From: Rhizobium sp. NXC24
GTDB lineage: Bacteria > Pseudomonadota > Alphaproteobacteria > Rhizobiales > Rhizobiaceae
Length of the DNA: 64,000 nt
Reading direction: 5' to 3'
Assembly: GCF_002944315.1 (NCBI RefSeq)
Contig: NZ_CP024314.1
Location: forward strand, 682,001-746,000
Every line of letters starts with the position of its first letter. The stretch's first letter is position 1. Both the position numbers and the translations under genes were made by a program. The notes under the pieces are model-generated. The model worked only from the letters and a program-made list of their open reading frames with translations. It made no database searches and had not been told where the DNA came from. Positions 47,387 to 55,051 of the stretch are shown in pieces.

Positions 47387-48199
47387 TCAAACGTGTGCGG
47401 CCAGATATGCCATGCTTTCCTTCAAAGCTTCGACGGGTTCCTTCAGCGCGTGCACATCCGGCGCAAAGGGCTCGAAGGAGAAGGGGCCGGCATAGCCGGC
47501 GGACAATAGCGCCCGCATCTGTCCGACATTGTCAAGACGGTCGCTGGCGTTGACCAGGACACGATGCGGATCGCGCATATCGGCAACCGAGACAGCGGAA
47601 TCGCTGACGCCGGAGATATGAACCAGGCCGGTGAGTTCCGGGAAAATCGCCGTCTCGCCAGCGAGATGATGATGGAAGGTGTCGTGAACAAGACGGAAGG
47701 TCGATTGCGCGCCAAGCTTTTCGATCTCAGCGGCGGCTTCGGTCTTCGAGCGCAATGAGCAGATCTCGAAGCCAAGCGGTTCCACCAGGCCAATGATCCC
47801 AGCGGCATCCAGCATCGGCTTCAGCGCCGTCAACGCCGTTTCGAGGTTCTGCCTGCGCGCCTCAGGCTCCCTGCCGCTGCCGTCGTTGACGGGGACAAGC
47901 ACCAGCGCTTTTGCGCCGCAATCCCGCGCATAGCCGATGAGTTCTGCCGCTTCCGTGGCGCGTGCCTCGTTCCACTCGTTGAAACGCTGCAGCGCGTTGA
48001 TCGAAATGATCGTCAGCCCATGACGCGCCGCAAGATCTTTGACCGCTGCTGCCGGTGTGCCGTCCAGAATCGCATTGCCGGCCAAATCATTGCGAATTTC
48101 GACGCTGTCGATGCCGAGTGTTTTCGCCGCGGAAAAGAACGATTCCAGGCTGAGGGACGGCGCACACATATGATTGAGCGCGAAACGAATGGAACTCAT
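47387..48199 (-). CDS. TIM-barrel sugar isomerase/epimerase, IolI-like (2-keto-myo-inositol isomerase type)
   Basis: 270 aa, AP-endonuclease-2-type barrel. Metal-site blocks: VEIRNDLAGN, LVEPLGFEICSL (Glu), LVHDTFHHHLAGE (Asp/His pair) and FSFEPFAPDVHAL (C-terminal Glu). The opening SIRFALNHMCAPSLSLESFF is what I know from proteins annotated as 2-keto-myo-inositol isomerase in rhizobia. It would interconvert keto-inositols; MocC/IolE-type function is a second option. ATG at 48199 is preferred (AGGAGG 10 bp before); 48208 is possible. It lies downstream of the LacI gene with an operator copy between them. Confidence 0.78.
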   Translation of the reverse strand: MSSIRFALNHMCAPSLSLESFFSAAKTLGIDSVEIRNDLAGNAILDGTPAAAVKDLAARHGLTIISINALQRFNEWNEARATEAAELIGYARDCGAKALVLVPVNDGSGREPEARRQNLETALTALKPMLDAAGIIGLVEPLGFEICSLRSKTEAAAEIEKLGAQSTFRLVHDTFHHHLAGETAIFPELTGLVHISGVSDSAVSVADMRDPHRVLVNASDRLDNVGQMRALLSAGYAGPFSFEPFAPDVHALKEPVEALKESMAYLAAHV

Positions 48200-48345
48200 G
48201 ACAGGCATTCCTCCTCTTAGTCGCCGGCCCGACAGGACGTCGATCGACCGTGCGTTTTCAGGAAATGACTATCGACAATCACGCGGCCGATCCACAGGCG
48301 AGCACCGGCTTCCTCCATCATCCATGATAGAAATATTCTGGCCGA

Positions 48346-48367: not shown

Positions 48368-49396
48368 CTAGATATTTTCCGAAACAAAAATGTCGAAGGG
48401 CAAGAAGGATTGCCCCGGCATTGCCGCTTCGCCGCGTTCGATGGCACCGATCATCAAATCCATGAGTTCCTTGCAGAGCGAAGGGAGAGGGGTGCCGATA
48501 ACCATGGTAACGACATCGTCAGCGAGTGCCGCCTTCGATTCCGGTGTCAGCTCGTTGACGACGACGATCAGCTTGCCGGCAAGCCCTTCCTCGCGAATGG
48601 CGGAAATCGCCCCTTCCATGCCGCCGCCACAGACATAAAAGCCGATGAGATCGGGATGTTTCTGCAGCAGGTTGAGCGTTGCCTCATGGGTGATTTCCGC
48701 CGTGTCCAGATTGATCAGCGTATCCAGCACCTCGAAATCCAGGGCGTTCTCGCGAAAATAGGAGCGAAAGCCAATCTCGCGCAGTTCATGCCCGTGAAAG
48801 CGATGGCTTCCGACGAAGCAGGCGACCTTGCCTGGATGGCGGGCAGATCGGGCGATCGTCCAGGCGGCGGTGCGCCCGACCTTGCGATTGTCGACGCCAA
48901 CATAGGTTTCGCGAACACCTGTCGCGAAATCGGAGAGCAGGGAAAAGACCGGGATGCCTTTTTCCTTCAGCTCCTCTATTGCCGTCGTCACGGCAGGGTA
49001 ATCCGGCGCAACCAGGGCGATCGCCTGGCTCCGCGCCGCCATAGCTTTCAACTTCTCGACAATTGCCGTCGGGGTCGATGCGGCGACGAAATCGATATGT
49101 GCATGGACGCGCGCGGTTGCGAGCGCCTGTGCCGCCGCGCCGATCTCCTTGGCAAACGACTGATAGAAGGGCTGGGACGGTTTCTGCAGCAGGAACCCCA
49201 ATCGATATTGGGGTAGATCCTCAAAGACACGCTGCCGCAGCAAGCCCACGGCATGGTAGCCGATCGATTGTGCTGCCTCGTAGACGCGCTTAGCGGTCTC
49301 CTCCCGGACGCGATGACGTCCGTTCAGCACGCGGTCGATGGTTGCGACGCTGACGCCGGAAGCCTTAGCAAGATCAGCGATGGTTGGTCTGCGCAT
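48368..49396 (-). CDS. LacI-family regulator of the moc/isomerase genes
   Basis: 342 aa. HTH IADLAKASGVSVATIDRVLN with hinge VGLLRQRVFEDLPQ; ligand domain LGFLLQKPSQPFYQSFAKEI, ALVAPDYPAVTTAIEELKEK, YVGVDNRKVGRTAAWTIARS, GFYVCGGGMEGAISAIREEG. The VATIDRVLNGR form and the TorR-like ligand domain place it with regulators of inositol/rhizopine-type genes. It sits between the isomerase gene and the divergent mocD gene, with matching operators on both sides, so it probably controls both and itself. Confidence 0.9.
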   Translation of the reverse strand: MRRPTIADLAKASGVSVATIDRVLNGRHRVREETAKRVYEAAQSIGYHAVGLLRQRVFEDLPQYRLGFLLQKPSQPFYQSFAKEIGAAAQALATARVHAHIDFVAASTPTAIVEKLKAMAARSQAIALVAPDYPAVTTAIEELKEKGIPVFSLLSDFATGVRETYVGVDNRKVGRTAAWTIARSARHPGKVACFVGSHRFHGHELREIGFRSYFRENALDFEVLDTLINLDTAEITHEATLNLLQKHPDLIGFYVCGGGMEGAISAIREEGLAGKLIVVVNELTPESKAALADDVVTMVIGTPLPSLCKELMDLMIGAIERGEAAMPGQSFLPFDIFVSENI

Positions 49397-49437
49397 GGAT
49401 GGTCCTGAGGTATTCCATCATGAATGAGATGGGCGGT

Positions 49438-49462
49438 TGATGGAATATGATAGATTCCATCA
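49438..49462. promoter_or_regulatory. LacI operator in the lacI-mocD divergent promoter region
   Basis: TGATGGAAT, 7-bp spacer, ATTCCATCA: perfect 9-bp arms. A further half-site ATTCCATCA lies at 49412-49420, 42 bp away (about four helical turns), closer to lacI. Confidence 0.75.
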
Positions 49463-49546
49463 TCGTTGCATTGAGGCAAGCAAAAACTCGACCTATCATT
49501 CCTGTCATCAGGTGCGGCGCGCTGGTGTGCGTCGCGGGAGGCAGGA

Positions 49547-50632
49547 ATGAGCGAGAGAGTGAAGCGTGATTACAGCCTGCTTGGCCCCAGCAGCCGGCTG
49601 GCGGTCGAAACCGGACTGGCGGCGGCGGAGTGGTATCATACCGAGATTGCCCGCAAGGAGATGAAGGCGCTGATGCAGCGCTCCGATGCGGCCGCCATCC
49701 GCGACACGATCATCTGGCTCGGCAGCATGGCGATCCTCGCCGGCCTTGGCATCTTTTTCTGGGGCTCCTGGCTTTGTGTCCCCTTCTTCCTGGCTTACGG
49801 CGTGCTTTACGGTTCGGCCTCTGATAGCCGCTGGCACGAATGCGGCCATGGCACGGCGTTCAAGACCCGCTGGATGAACGATGCGGTCTACGAGATCGCC
49901 TGCTTCATGATCATGCGCAATCCGGTGACCTGGCGCTGGAGCCATACCCGCCATCACACCGACACCGTCATCGTCGGCCGCGATCCGGAGATCGCCGTCA
50001 TGCGGCCGCCGGATCTCGTGCGCCTGGTCCTGAACTTCTTCGGCATCGTCGATGTTTTCTATGCGATGCTCGACATGGTCCGCAATGCCTTCGGCATCAT
50101 CAGCGCCACGGAGAAGACCTTCATTCCCGAGATGGAGCAGCCGAAGGCGATCCGTATCGCCCGCATCTGGAGCCTCATCTATATCGCCACGATTGCCGCC
50201 GCTATTGCCATGGGCTCGCTCTTGCCGCTGGTGCTGATCGGCCTGCCGCGGCTCTATGGCGCCTGGCATCATGTGCTGACCGGCCTGTTGCAGCATGGCG
50301 GGCTTGCCGACAATGTCATCGACCACCGGCTGAACAGCCGCACGGTGCTGATGAACCCGGTAAGCCGCTTCATCTATTGGAACATGAACTACCATGTCGA
50401 ACACCACATGTTCCCGATGGTGCCCTATCATGCGCTGCCGAAGCTGCATGCGATGATCAAACACGATCTGCCGCGACCCAATCCGTCGATCTGGTCGGGC
50501 TACCGCGAGATGATCCCGGCCTTCCTGCGACAGTTGCGCAACGAGGATTATTTCCTGAAGCGCGACCTGCCGCCGACGGCGAGGCCCTATCGCGAGGAAT
50601 TCCACACCGGGCTTGCCGAAGCGGCACAATAA
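49547..50632 (+). CDS. mocD: MocD-type membrane di-iron oxygenase (fatty-acid-desaturase fold)
   Basis: 361 aa. Four His clusters of membrane di-iron enzymes: HECGH (97-101), HTRHH (133-137), HH...QH (241-250) and HVEHH (283-287), with TMs at about 55-90 and 207-235. In rhizopine users MocD acts with MocE and MocF to remove the O-methyl group of 3-O-methyl-scyllo-inosamine; here the substrate is inferred only. It starts a tight run mocD-mocE-mocF-panB-like-purU-folD. GGGAGGCAGGA lies just before the ATG. No mocA, mocB or mocC gene is in the window, apart from the inositol-type isomerase. Confidence 0.85.
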   Translation: MSERVKRDYSLLGPSSRLAVETGLAAAEWYHTEIARKEMKALMQRSDAAAIRDTIIWLGSMAILAGLGIFFWGSWLCVPFFLAYGVLYGSASDSRWHECGHGTAFKTRWMNDAVYEIACFMIMRNPVTWRWSHTRHHTDTVIVGRDPEIAVMRPPDLVRLVLNFFGIVDVFYAMLDMVRNAFGIISATEKTFIPEMEQPKAIRIARIWSLIYIATIAAAIAMGSLLPLVLIGLPRLYGAWHHVLTGLLQHGGLADNVIDHRLNSRTVLMNPVSRFIYWNMNYHVEHHMFPMVPYHALPKLHAMIKHDLPRPNPSIWSGYREMIPAFLRQLRNEDYFLKRDLPPTARPYREEFHTGLAEAAQ

Positions 50633-50691
50633 CCGCAGGCAACAACCGCAGCCAGAACGGCATATACAACGGCACATACAGGGAGGCAGGA

Positions 50692-51006
50692 ATGAGCGGC
50701 AACTGGATTAAGGTCTGTGCGGCGGATGCGATCGACGAGGAGGACGTCATGCGCTTCGACCATGGCGGCAAGACCTTCGCCATCTATCGCAGTCCGGAAG
50801 ACGACTATTTTGCCACCGACGGCCTGTGCACGCACGAGCAGGTCCATCTTGCCGACGGGCTGGTGATGGACAACATCATCGAATGTCCCAAGCACAACGG
50901 CCGCTTCGACTATCGCACCGGCGAGGCCAAGGGCGCCCCCGTCTGCGTCAACCTCAAAACCTATCCCGTCAAGGTCGAAAACGGCACTGTGTTCATTGCG
51001 CTATAA
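50692..51006 (+). CDS. mocE: MocE-type Rieske [2Fe-2S] ferredoxin
   Basis: 104 aa, a stand-alone Rieske ferredoxin. Cluster ligands Cys46-His48 (CTHEQVHLADG) and Cys65-His68 (CPKHNGRFD). It carries electrons from the MocF flavoprotein to the MocD oxygenase. ATG at 50692 follows GGGAGGCAGGA. 59 bp after mocD, 10 bp before mocF. The same family serves as component in naphthalene-type dioxygenases, but the neighbours decide for MocE. Confidence 0.9.
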   Translation: MSGNWIKVCAADAIDEEDVMRFDHGGKTFAIYRSPEDDYFATDGLCTHEQVHLADGLVMDNIIECPKHNGRFDYRTGEAKGAPVCVNLKTYPVKVENGTVFIAL

Positions 51007-51016
51007 GGGGAAAGCC

Positions 51017-52243
51017 ATGCTGCATTTCGTTATTATCGGGGCTGGAGAGTGCGGCGCCCGCGCCGCCTTTGCGCTCAGGGAAAAGGGCTTTAACGGTGAC
51101 ATCACACTGATCGGCGCCGAGCCGGTTGCGCCCTATGAACGTCCGCCACTGTCGAAGGAGGGACTTGTCCTCGCGCATGAGCCGAAGTTCGTGGCCGCCT
51201 TGGAACGCTATGCCGACCAGCGCATCGACCTTCGGCTCGCCACGCATGCGACCGACATCGATCCGATCGGCAAGGTGGTCACACTCTCGGACGGAGAGCA
51301 ACTTAGCTACGACAAACTGTTGCTGGCGACCGGCGCATCTGCGCGCAGCTTTCCCGGCATTGTGGGAACCGGCGAGCGCATTCGCATGCTCCGCACCCAT
51401 GCCGATGCCACGGGGCTGCGGCCGGCGCTTCTCCCCGGCCGCCATAGCGCCATCATCGGCGGCGGTTTTATCGGTCTCGAGCTGGCGGCGACGGCGCGCA
51501 AGCTTGGCGCCGATGTCACCGTGATCGAAGGCCTGCCGCGCGTCCTGAAACGGGGCGTGCCGGAAGCGGTTGCCGAGGTGATAACCCAACGTCATCGGGA
51601 CGAAGGCGTCGATATCCGCTGCGGCGAGACCATTGTGGCAGTGGAGGAAGCTGCGACCGGTGCGATTGTTCGCCTGGGCGATGGGCAGGAACTCTCCGCC
51701 GATCTCGTGCTCATCGGCATCGGTGCTCAACCGAATGTCGCGCTCGCCGAGAAAGCGGGTCTTGCGGTCGACAACGGCATTGCCGTCAACGAGCGGCTGG
51801 AAACCTCTGGAGCCGATATCTACGCCGCAGGCGATTGCTGCTCCTTTCCGCTGGCACTTTATGGCGGGCGGCGGGTTCGCCTGGAATCCTGGCGCAACGC
51901 ACAGGAACAGGGAACTTTGGCTGCGGCCAATTTGCTGGGCGCGGGGGACAGCATCTCGGCCGTGCCGTGGTTCTGGTCCGATCAATATGATCTGACGCTG
52001 CAAATTGCCGGCCTTGCCGATGGCGCGACGACGATGCTGAGGCGTGACCTTGGCGAAGGAGCCTTCATCCTCTTCCATCTCGATGAGACCGGCCGGCTGC
52101 TGGCGGCCAGCGGCATCGGTCGCGGCAATGCCGTCGCCCGCGATATTCGTCTCGCCGAAATGCTGATTGCCGCCCGCGCTCATCCCGATCCGGAAGCGCT
52201 GACGGCGAGCCATGTCAAACTCAAATCGCTTCTTGCCGCGTGA
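51017..52243 (+). CDS. mocF: MocF-type FAD/NADH ferredoxin reductase
   Basis: 408 aa, the usual length for Rieske-system reductases. FAD site VIIGAGECGARAAFAL at the N-terminus, PYERPPLSKEGL, NADH site SAIIGGGFIGLELAATARKL, and a second FAD-binding block DIYAAGDCCSFP. C-terminal reductase domain follows. ATG at 51017 follows GGGGAAAG. Feeds electrons from NADH to MocE. Ends 25 bp before the PanB-like gene. Confidence 0.9.
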   Translation: MLHFVIIGAGECGARAAFALREKGFNGDITLIGAEPVAPYERPPLSKEGLVLAHEPKFVAALERYADQRIDLRLATHATDIDPIGKVVTLSDGEQLSYDKLLLATGASARSFPGIVGTGERIRMLRTHADATGLRPALLPGRHSAIIGGGFIGLELAATARKLGADVTVIEGLPRVLKRGVPEAVAEVITQRHRDEGVDIRCGETIVAVEEAATGAIVRLGDGQELSADLVLIGIGAQPNVALAEKAGLAVDNGIAVNERLETSGADIYAAGDCCSFPLALYGGRRVRLESWRNAQEQGTLAAANLLGAGDSISAVPWFWSDQYDLTLQIAGLADGATTMLRRDLGEGAFILFHLDETGRLLAASGIGRGNAVARDIRLAEMLIAARAHPDPEALTASHVKLKSLLAA

Positions 52244-52268
52244 AGAGCCCTTACCCCAGGAGTTTCCA

Positions 52269-53075
52269 ATGAAGAAACATAATCGTGCAACGGTCGCCGA
52301 CCTGCTGGCGCTCAAAGGACAGCGGCAGCTCACCATGTTGCGCGTCACCTCGCTGGAGGAAGCCGAAGCGGCGGAAAAGGCCGGGATTGATATGCTTTCC
52401 GTACCGCCGGCGCTGCTTGGCCCCGTATTCCGCGAGGCTGCTCCGAGCCCCTTTGCTGTTCCTGGCCTCGAATATGGCGATTACGTCTCGGCGGAAGAGT
52501 ACATGCGGGAGGCGTTCAGGGCGCTGAAGGCCGGTGGCGACGCCGTTTATTGCGCCGCCGGGCTGCAAACGATTCGGCGGATGCGCGAAGAGGGCATTCC
52601 GGTCTGCGGCCATGTCGGCCTCATTCCGTCTAAGGCGACCTGGACGGGTGGCTTTCGCGCCGTCGGCAAGACCGCGGCAAGCGCTTTCGAGATCTGGCGC
52701 CAAACCAAGGCACTGGAAGAGGCGGGCGCCTTTGCGGCGGAGATTGAAGTCGTGCCTGGCGATGTCGCTTCCGCGATCAGCGCGAACACATCGATGCTGA
52801 TGATTTCCATGGGTGCCGGAAGCGGATGCGATGCCCAATATCTCTTTGCCGACGATGTGCTGGGCAGTAATCGCGGTCATAGGCCGCGTCACGCCAAGGT
52901 GTATCGCGATTTTGCGGCCGAATATGACCGGCTGCAGAATGAACGCACCGCCGCTTTCAAGGAATTTGCCGAGGACGTTCGCTCGGGCGCCTATCCGGCA
53001 AAAGGGCATCTCGTCGCAATCGACGAAGGGGAGCTACAGGCGTTTCTCCGGCTGCTTTCCGAAGGCGGTCGATAA
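52269..53075 (+). CDS. PanB-family protein (ketopantoate hydroxymethyltransferase paralogue) lacking metal ligands
   Basis: 268 aa TIM barrel. Clear PanB likeness in the middle and C-terminus: RRMREEGIPVCGHVGLIPSK (PanB PVCGHLGLTPQ), EAGAFAAEIEVVPGDVASAI (PanB ECVPVELA, catalytic Glu kept) and RRPRHAKVYRDF-like C-terminal region. However, the VGDSLG metal Asp is replaced (LSVPPALLG), and the second Asp and the Lys/Glu of the MVKIEGG strand are also changed (AVYCAAG). So it is unlikely to make ketopantoate. PanB uses 5,10-methylene-tetrahydrofolate, and its neighbours are purU and folD; a C1-handling or aldol role is a reasonable guess. CAGGAG precedes ATG 52269. Confidence 0.8.
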   Translation: MKKHNRATVADLLALKGQRQLTMLRVTSLEEAEAAEKAGIDMLSVPPALLGPVFREAAPSPFAVPGLEYGDYVSAEEYMREAFRALKAGGDAVYCAAGLQTIRRMREEGIPVCGHVGLIPSKATWTGGFRAVGKTAASAFEIWRQTKALEEAGAFAAEIEVVPGDVASAISANTSMLMISMGAGSGCDAQYLFADDVLGSNRGHRPRHAKVYRDFAAEYDRLQNERTAAFKEFAEDVRSGAYPAKGHLVAIDEGELQAFLRLLSEGGR

Positions 53076-53121
53076 CGCCATAGGTGGCGTTTCATGATTT
53101 TTTCCAATCGGACGACATAAG

Positions 53122-54006
53122 ATGAAAAATTTCGTACTGACCGTATCCTGCAAATCGACGCGCGGGATCGTTGCGGCGATAGCGAATTATCTGGCCGACC
53201 AGGGCTGCAATATCGTCGACTCCAGCCAGTTCGACGATCTCGATACCGGCAAGTTCTTCATGCGGGTCTCCTTCATCTCCGAGGAAGGGGTCAAGCAGGA
53301 GGCGCTGGTCGAAGGTTTCAAGCCGGTCGCCGAGAAATTCGAGATGGATGCCGAGATCTATGATGCCCAGAAGCGCATGAAGGTGCTCTTGATGGTGTCG
53401 CGCTTCGGCCATTGCCTCAACGACCTGCTGTATCGCTGGAAGATCGGCGCGCTGCCGATCGACATCGTCGGCGTCGTCTCCAACCATTTCGATTACCAGA
53501 AGGTGGTCGTCAACCACGATATCCCCTTCCACCACATCAAGGTGACGAAGGACAACAAGCCGCAGGCCGAAGCGCAACTGCTGGACCTCGTCGAGCAGAC
53601 CGGCACCGAACTGATCGTGCTCGCCCGCTACATGCAGGTGCTGTCGGACGCCATGTGCAAGAAGATGTCGGGCAAGATCATCAACATCCACCATTCCTTC
53701 CTGCCGAGCTTCAAGGGCGCCAACCCGTACAAGCAGGCCTATGAGCGCGGCGTCAAGCTGATCGGGGCGACGGCGCATTACGTCACCGGCGATCTCGATG
53801 AAGGTCCGATCATCGAGCAGGACACGGCCCGCATCACGCATGCGCAGTCGGCCGAGGATTATGTCTCGATCGGCCGCGATGTCGAAAGCCAGGTACTGGC
53901 GCGGGCCATCCATGCCCACATCCACTACCGCACCTTCCTCAACGGCAACCGCACCATCGTCTTCCCGGCAAGCCCCGGAAGCTATGCCTCGGAGCGGATG
54001 GGGTAG
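53122..54006 (+). CDS. purU: Formyltetrahydrofolate deformylase PurU
   Basis: 294 aa. Hydrolyses 10-formyl-tetrahydrofolate to formate and tetrahydrofolate, freeing the folate carrier. N-terminal ACT domain (1-80: VLTVSCKSTRGIVAAIANYL) and a C-terminal formyltransferase-fold domain with RYMQVLSDAM, NIHHSFLPSF (catalytic His) and GATAHYVTGDLDEGPIIEQD (catalytic Asp). Next gene folD begins 3 bp later. With an oxygenase that would release a C1 unit, PurU makes an outlet for excess formyl-folate. Confidence 0.95.
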   Translation: MKNFVLTVSCKSTRGIVAAIANYLADQGCNIVDSSQFDDLDTGKFFMRVSFISEEGVKQEALVEGFKPVAEKFEMDAEIYDAQKRMKVLLMVSRFGHCLNDLLYRWKIGALPIDIVGVVSNHFDYQKVVVNHDIPFHHIKVTKDNKPQAEAQLLDLVEQTGTELIVLARYMQVLSDAMCKKMSGKIINIHHSFLPSFKGANPYKQAYERGVKLIGATAHYVTGDLDEGPIIEQDTARITHAQSAEDYVSIGRDVESQVLARAIHAHIHYRTFLNGNRTIVFPASPGSYASERMG

Positions 54007-54009
54007 GCG

Positions 54010-54909
54010 ATGGCTGACATCATCGACGGCAAGCAGGTGGCTGCTTCGGTAATTGATGCGGTGAAGACGGCGACCGCAGCACTGGAAAAAGAGACGGGTG
54101 TGAAGACCGGCCTTGCCGTCGTCATCGTCGGTGATGATCCGGCCAGTCACACCTATGTCGGCGCCAAGGGCCGCATGGCCAAGGAATGCGGCTTTACCTC
54201 CATCCAGCATACGCTGCCGGCCGAGACGACGCAGGACGAGCTGGCAAAGCTTGTCCAGTCCCTCAACGAGGATGCCGGCATTCACGGCATCCTGGTGCAA
54301 CTGCCGCTGCCGAAACATCTGAATGCCGAAGCGATCATCCAGTCGATCCGGCCGGACAAGGATGTCGATGGCCTGCATGTGGTCAATGCCGGCAAGCTGG
54401 CGACCGGCGATCTTGCCACCGGGCTGATCTCCTGCACGCCGGCCGGCGCCATGCTGCTGGTGCGCCGCATCCATGGCGAGGACCTGTCGGGATTGAATGC
54501 CGTCGTCATCGGCCGCTCGAACCTCTTCGGCAAGCCGATGGCGCAATTGCTGCTCAATGCCAATGCGACGGTGACGACGGCCCATTCCCGCACCAAGGAC
54601 CTGCCGGCGGTTGCCCGCAGTGCCGATATTCTGGTGGCGGCGGTCGGCCGGCCGGAAATGGTCAAGGCGGATTGGGTAAAGCCGGGTGCGACGGTGATTG
54701 ATGTCGGCATCAACCGCATCGCCGCACCGGAACGCGGCGAGGGCAAGAGCCGGCTGGTCGGCGATGTCGCCTTTGCCGAGGCGGCGGAAGTGGCGGCTGC
54801 CATCACTCCGGTTCCGGGCGGCGTCGGGCCGATGACCATCGCCATGCTGATGGCCAATACGGTGATTGCCGCCCATCGTGCTGCCGGCAAGCCGGCGCCG
54901 CGGTTCTGA
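54010..54909 (+). CDS. folD: Methylene-tetrahydrofolate dehydrogenase/cyclohydrolase FolD
   Basis: 299 aa bifunctional enzyme: 5,10-methylene-THF to 10-formyl-THF with NADP. Catalytic block [17 protein letters not shown] (Lys), [25 protein letters not shown] site [17 protein letters not shown], and [14 protein letters not shown]. Located 3 bp after purU. Probably a second, pathway-specific copy, since a housekeeping folD is normally elsewhere in the genome; this cannot be checked from the window. Together with PurU it turns methylene-THF into formate. Confidence 0.95.
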
Positions 54910-54928
54910 TCACGCCAAGTAAATCATA

Positions 54929-55051
54929 TCAATCGGCCGGCGCCACGCCGGTCGAAGCACGCACGATCAGCTCGGTCTTCCAAAGCTCCTGCTCGGGAAA
55001 TGTCTCGAGCTGCTTGATCTCGCCGATCAGCCGCTCGGCGATCGTCTTCCA
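54929..55051 (-). pseudogene. Remnant: C-terminal 40 codons of a LacI-family regulator
   Basis: On the minus strand the frame ends with TGA at 54929-54931. It reads, from about 55051, WKTIAERLIGEIKQLETF, PEQELWKTELIVRASTG and VAPAD. The ELIVRASTG ending is the normal C-terminus of many LacI-family proteins. Upstream of about 55051 the similarity stops, and a stop codon follows about 12 codons further. No DNA-binding domain is left. It lies tail to tail with folD, 19 bp away. Confidence 0.65.

Follow-up and report, generated by a model that had tools for sequence, protein, structure and literature searches.

The rhizopine locus is named mocCABRDEF, that is, only as far as mocF, in the available text of two studies (PMC5789663, PMC6668481), and the accessible part of a third identifies lacI-mocDEF of S. 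meliloti 1021 as SM_b20817–20820 (PMC11387232). A 64,000-nucleotide stretch of the Rhizobium sp. NXC24 genome (contig NZ_CP024314.1, positions 682,001–746,000; hereafter the window) carries the same mocD-mocE-mocF order, followed by a gene for a PanB-like protein (PanBL), purU and folD. The run differs from the rhizopine locus in that MocR, mocA, mocB and mocC are not found beside it and a LacI-family regulator and an IolI-like gene stand there instead; on gene content, it is a rhizopine-type run with the MocCABR front end replaced by these two genes. The absence of mocABC, noted in a first-pass annotation of the window, holds, as the neighbours are cob genes, the IolI-like gene, lacI and a porin-like open reading frame (ORF); the lacI and IolI-like genes adjoining the run had gone unreported there. 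Drawing on directly observed features, namely the gene identities, their order and conservation, the occurrence of the run after MocR in plasmids, the lost PanB metal residues and the association of PanBL with oxygenase genes, we read the run as an operon, controlled by LacI, for the catabolism of an O-methylated inositol (D-pinitol or ononitol being the likeliest), whose one-carbon (C1) unit would pass via PanBL to tetrahydrofolate (THF), with a probability of roughly 0.6.

The six genes form one plus-strand run, as first described, with the same coordinates and intergenic gaps of 59, 10, 25, 46 and 3 bp. The mocD gene (49547–50632) encodes an FA_desaturase-type di-iron oxygenase (PF00487, 137.6 bits, cut-off 29.7) with the three histidine boxes of membrane di-iron oxygenases (HECGH, HTRHH and HVEHH), the histidines of which are conserved in 69/69 aligned MocD homologues; comparison of the MocD sequence with solved structures gave no match. 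The mocE product (50692–51006; protein read from 50686 in the family scans) is a Rieske-type [2Fe-2S] ferredoxin of the MocE family (TIGR02377, 185 bits, cut-off 136.15) carrying a C-x-H ... C-x2-H motif, and mocF (51017–52243; read from 50996) codes for a flavin adenine dinucleotide (FAD)-dependent ferredoxin reductase (PF07992, 243.3 bits; PF14759, 75.1 bits). PanBL, proposed here to transfer C1 units to THF, is encoded at 52269–53075, followed by purU (53122–54006; 10-formyl-THF deformylase, TIGR00655, 338.9 bits, cut-off 285.95) and folD (54010–54909; methylene-THF dehydrogenase/cyclohydrolase, NF010785, 500.4 bits, cut-off 396), the latter with both domains present (PF00763 and PF02882).

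The first-pass annotation had linked mocDEF to folate C1 genes, and plasmids of three genera bear this out, since in them mocDEF-PanBL-purU follow a MocR gene that passes the cut-off of NF052281 (650 bits). A Rhizobium indicum plasmid has the order iolE, Gfo/Idh/MocA genes, sugar-binding protein, MocR (739 bits), mocD, mocE, mocF, PanBL and purU, after which a folD match lies in two pieces (L291 12587–13218), reflecting an interrupted gene or a sequence error; five Rhizobium plasmids have this stretch, 98–100% alike. The R. indicum order from MocR (756.5 bits) through mocDEF-PanBL-purU recurs in S. meliloti RCAM1115, where the mocD match is likewise in two pieces (L309 8998–10046; interrupted gene or sequence error) and the moc locus gave no folD match. 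In a Phyllobacterium zundukense plasmid, MocR (765.1 bits) is followed by mocDEF, PanBL, purU and a full-length folD match (73%), which is the six-gene run of the window, but behind MocR. Compared with the window, loci L291 and L310 show identities of 62–81% for mocDEF, 76–77% for panBL and 83–85% for purU. The idea of C1 disposal gains from these MocR-linked loci. The rhizopine-binding protein model NF052284 was rejected as a moc-locus marker: eight regions (seven over the cut-off and one under it) had no mocD, mocE, mocF or PanBL, while the binding protein of the R. indicum moc locus reaches just 39.8 bits with this model; MocR (NF052281) was used instead. Loci L284, L286 and L296–L308 have MocR over the cut-off and no mocDEF, several of them with a polysaccharide-deacetylase-family gene that is also found in the moc locus.

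Conservation was followed in a near-relative set consisting of the best 80 loci from one genome scan, with PanBL 76–95% identical to that of the window. The genes mocD, mocE and mocF precede PanBL in 77 of these 80 loci, so the gene order is beyond chance. A divergent lacI occupies the same place as in the window in 76/80 loci, and the TIM-barrel (IolI-like) gene adjoins it in 59/80. In R. johnstonii 3841, for example, the TIM-barrel gene, lacI, mocDEF and PanBL are present and are followed by a membrane-protein gene and nadA, with no purU-folD there.

PanBL has in common with PanB, the ketopantoate hydroxymethyltransferase, its PF02548 family (153 bits, profile positions 72–258), and the PanB-family assignment made at first stands to that extent; it fails on the panB equivalog model (TIGR00222, 112.4 bits against a cut-off of 207.55). 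Residues were compared between 110 PanBL and 20 PanB proteins, the N-terminal half of which aligns poorly (L185, one of the 111 PanBL sites, has no usable ORF and was left out of this comparison and of the tree); we take residue numbers and roles to be those of E. coli PanB, with Asp45, Asp84 and Glu114 as the metal ligands. Equivalents of His136 and Glu181 are retained in 98% and 97% of PanBL, respectively, including the window protein. PanBL differs in that the Asp45-Ser46 loop is missing in about three quarters of sequences, the Asp84 position is Gly in 74%, the Lys112 position is Tyr in 79%, and the commonest residue at the Glu114 position is Ala (27%); the window protein has Gly, Tyr and Ala at these three positions. 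The metal-ligand set of PanB is thus not found in PanBL. Among the invariant residues of a 70-sequence PanBL alignment are R55, H115, W125, E158, E160, D188, D196, R207, H208 and R226 (window numbering). On the phylogenetic tree the 110 PanBL proteins are separate from the 20 PanB proteins with a support of 0.886; a clade of L122, L165 and L167 looks wrong, maybe owing to poor ORF choice, and no count depends on the topology. Besides PanBL, the genome encodes one canonical PanB (C1:2486314, 345.2 bits on PF02548). Because of the failed cut-off, the lost metal-site residues and this separate PanB, PanBL is probably not a pantothenate enzyme and the family is probably misnamed, and on these data many proteins named 3-methyl-2-oxobutanoate hydroxymethyltransferase are probably not that enzyme. 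No title among the literature matches listed, mostly outside subscription journals, connected PanB with rhizopine, with oxidative demethylation or with the capture of formaldehyde.

PanBL is a family usually found beside an oxygenase gene. Loci were gathered by searches of the phylum, the class, the order and one marine order, of which a sample was fetched, and 103 of them, a chosen part of the matches (the window, 5 of the 80 relatives and 97 loci from the genome searches), were scored with profiles built from the neighbours, a length filter and 5-kb flanks; 20 PanB loci from the same order and class served as the control. An oxygenase-length match occurs within 5 kb of PanBL in 80/103 loci versus 0/20 true PanB loci (84/103 versus 0/20 before the length filter), figures to be read with the facts that the families were picked after seeing the neighbours, the loci are related and the control is small. 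Matches number 0.103 per kb within the 5-kb flanks, compared with 0.019 per kb outside them. For the 110 PanBL genes, the nearest oxygenase is of the MocD type in 63 cases, FA_hydroxylase in 13, PhyH in 7, Rieske alpha in 2 and TauD in 1, with none in 24; one or two representatives of each of the five families were confirmed by Pfam. The distance is at most 500 bp at 55 of the 111 sites, 46 of them with both genes on the same strand. PanBL directly adjoins PhyH-type iron/2-oxoglutarate (Fe/2OG) oxygenase genes in L160 (9232–12559), L223 (4401–8541) and L169 (4938–6643), two of which have tandem PanBL pairs with PhyH pairs. Elsewhere in the window's own genome (contig C4, L281 15091–17200), an FA_hydroxylase-type gene neighbours one that resembles a sugar-binding-protein gene, and PanBL is absent from the vicinity. 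As for distribution, all matches beyond E 1e-30 in a phylum sample of 299 genomes fall within the window's class, and in one order PanBL is present at E <= 1e-40 in 87/100 genomes, with up to six copies in 1.5-Mb genomes (the order of G443, whose marine label rests on Tara-sourced and MarineAlpha-named relatives).

Taking these data together, we infer the substrate, the hydroxylation, the PanBL reaction and a single transcript for the run, and propose the following pathway. Electrons would pass from MocF to MocE and on to MocD, which would hydroxylate the O-methyl group to a hemiacetal (-O-CH2OH). PanBL would then either perform the reverse of the PanB reaction on the O-linked hydroxymethyl group or capture released formaldehyde, yielding 5,10-methylene-THF and the free cyclitol. 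FolD would oxidise the former to 10-formyl-THF, from which PurU would release formate and THF, while the cyclitol would enter the inositol pathway, where the IolI-like protein would interconvert keto-inositols. In PanB the metal catalyses enol formation, according to the available part of a review (PMC7770189). Run backwards, PanB takes a hydroxymethyl group off carbon and puts it onto THF, and PanBL could do likewise from oxygen. An oxygen leaving group should need no enol(ate)-forming metal, since an alcohol presumably leaves more easily than an enolate, and this would fit the lost metal site of PanBL. Spontaneous condensation of formaldehyde with THF is described as too slow to be effective in the accessible text of another report (PMC7073904). 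Beyond the window we propose tentatively, at somewhat less than even odds, that PanBL represents an enzyme class of a new kind: descended from PanB but independent of metal, it would move the hydroxymethyl group produced by several types of oxidative demethylase (MocD, FA_hydroxylase, PhyH, Rieske and TauD type) onto THF, avoiding free formaldehyde, and would do so in Alphaproteobacteria that range from symbionts of legumes to marine bacteria with small genomes. On the folate side, such an enzyme would correspond to Fae, the formaldehyde-activating enzyme of the tetrahydromethanopterin (H4MPT) pathway: the likeness lies in the proposed loading of formaldehyde onto a C1 carrier, while the two presumably belong to different families, judging by name only, and the carrier proposed for PanBL is THF. 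If PanBL does load C1 units onto folate, a reaction that is mostly assumed to be spontaneous would have its enzyme, and the demethylation step of rhizopine use would be extended. The common legume compounds pinitol and ononitol would then have a pathway, and a C1 route would be indicated for marine bacteria.

Methylated inositols such as pinitol and ononitol are our best guess at the substrate because genes for inositol dehydrogenase, IolB-family proteins or inositol-type ATP-binding cassette (ABC) transporters accompany the run in orthologous loci. An iolG gene over the cut-off adjoins the orthologous operons in L023 and L079, IolB-family genes are found in L132 and L155, and an IolC-like gene in L132 was read by eye. 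The ABC binding protein beside one orthologous operon is closest to PDB 4yo7 (231.4 bits, the next being 149.7), the ligand of which is presumably myo-inositol. In the window, the IolI-like TIM-barrel gene (47387–48208, minus strand; PF01261) lies beside lacI and is divergent from the run; its product has its best structure matches in PDB 2q02 and 4hgx (152.2 bits) and no match in the NCBIfam scan of the window proteins, and is probably a keto-inositol isomerase. The pathway of inositol catabolism (iol), whose iolG, iolB or IolI-like genes adjoin the orthologous operons, itself has no demethylation step, and in the genome studied here IolB is encoded on contig C1 and the six-gene run on C4. 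Legumes widely contain pinitol and ononitol, which build up in nodules, as stated in the part of a source at hand (PMC8730688). In the available portion of a study of R. mesoamericanum in Mimosa exudate, where pinitol was the most concentrated compound (145 uM), mocDEF homologues were up 1.5–2.1-fold along with iol genes and idhA, and its authors themselves inferred rhizopine use from this expression (PMC5789663). With LacI, IolI-like, iolG, iolB and inositol-type ABC neighbours, the suggestion made at first of a methylated cyclitol other than rhizopine is plausible. The alternative that survives best, possible and yet on the unlikely side, is another O-methyl compound, be it rhizopine itself, an O-methyl sugar or an unknown cyclitol: mocDEF are rhizopine genes by name, and general sugar transporters occur in divergent PanBL loci, but MocR has no match at E <= 1e-150 in the window's genome, no mocABC lies beside the run and inositol genes recur beside its orthologues.

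Several observations weigh against a methylated-inositol operon with folate disposal. Among near relatives with enough downstream sequence, purU immediately follows PanBL in 12/69 loci and folD follows in 7/68, so that the "built-in" folate disposal claimed in the first-pass annotation is valid for a minority, and purU-folD as a fixed component of the run was rejected. In the wider survey, purU lies within 5 kb of PanBL in only 5/103 loci and folD in 3/103, and 23/103 loci have no scored oxygenase within that distance. The first-pass annotation had named panB-purU-folD apart from mocDEF as evidence that would count against its idea, and such cases do occur: L016 has PanBL-purU-folD and L024 PanBL-purU, both without mocDEF nearby, while in L021, on a contig that stops shortly downstream, PanBL stands by itself. 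Conversely, mocDEF are found without PanBL in Rhizobium sp. Q54, with inositol genes adjoining, and in Paenibacillus. MocR exceeds its cut-off in 14/394 whole genomes, and mocDEF and PanBL are absent from all 14 regions, some of them cut by contig ends; the link of mocDEF to MocR therefore rests on the plasmid records of three genera. On the side of the substrate, the TIM-barrel protein matches the IolI structure 1i60 weakly (29.5 bits, E 5.1e-6), far below 2q02 and 4hgx, no inositol-type ABC genes lie beside the run in the window, and the window's own LacI shows no tie to pinitol.

The scarcity of purU and folD beside most PanBL genes speaks for a role of PanBL outside folate metabolism, in which it would act on the oxidised sugar skeleton, for instance as a retro-aldol enzyme or isomerase, with formaldehyde going to general detoxification and purU/folD being secondary in some lineages. 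Sugar-type ABC genes within 5 kb of PanBL in 44–48/103 loci and Gfo/Idh/MocA genes in 32/103 point the same way (among the 20 PanB control loci, an ABC ATPase was found in two and folD in one). On the other hand, PanBL descends from a folate enzyme, PurU directly adjoins it in window-type, MocR-type and L130 loci, and for partner oxygenases of unrelated families a common C1 product is easier to account for than a single common sugar skeleton; we regard this explanation as doubtful. Improbable is a reading of MocDEF as a hydroxylase or desaturase system that plays no part in demethylation, the folate genes being passengers; the MocD family consists of desaturases and hydroxylases and no solved structure matches the MocD sequence, but mocDEF-PanBL-purU follow MocR in three genera, where the known substrate has an O-methyl group, and the gene order is kept in 77/80 loci. 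Finally, PanBL as a second pantothenate enzyme making ketopantoate, for which the PF02548 match and the name in public records speak, was rejected as very improbable on the TIGR00222 cut-off, the lost residues and the separate genomic PanB.

The LacI-family regulator that would control the proposed methylated-inositol operon is encoded at 48368–49396 on the minus strand, divergent from mocD (PF00356 and PF13407). Between the two genes lies a perfect 9-bp inverted repeat with a 7-bp centre (49438–49462), a candidate operator and the sole match in the window allowing up to three mismatches (0.05 expected). An operator common to species was rejected, as the window's repeat was not found in other species. 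The stretch 49366–51018, comprising the lacI start, the promoter region, mocD and mocE, is duplicated 66 kb away in the same genome (G000:C4:797340–798992, L115 11341–12993) with 98.4% DNA identity over 1653 bp, and this copy comes without mocF or PanBL.

The purU and folD genes of the window have near-identical twins elsewhere in the genome. Window purU (53143–54005) is 98.4% identical in DNA over 863 bp, and the folD stretch (54022–55041) 97.6% over 1022 bp, to separate chromosomal genes, which lie in two separate places near 278 kb and 700 kb (L279 and L280). Eight relatives retain parts of the window's run at 74–82% DNA identity, and compared with these values the near-identity of the twins suggests recent copying between loci or gene conversion. 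Contig C4 carries further purU genes, one after a glyA-like gene and folD (L277 7242–10451) and another after a glutamine-synthetase-like gene (L278 6117–8384), with names partly read by eye; the genome therefore appears to keep several sets of genes for C1 disposal.

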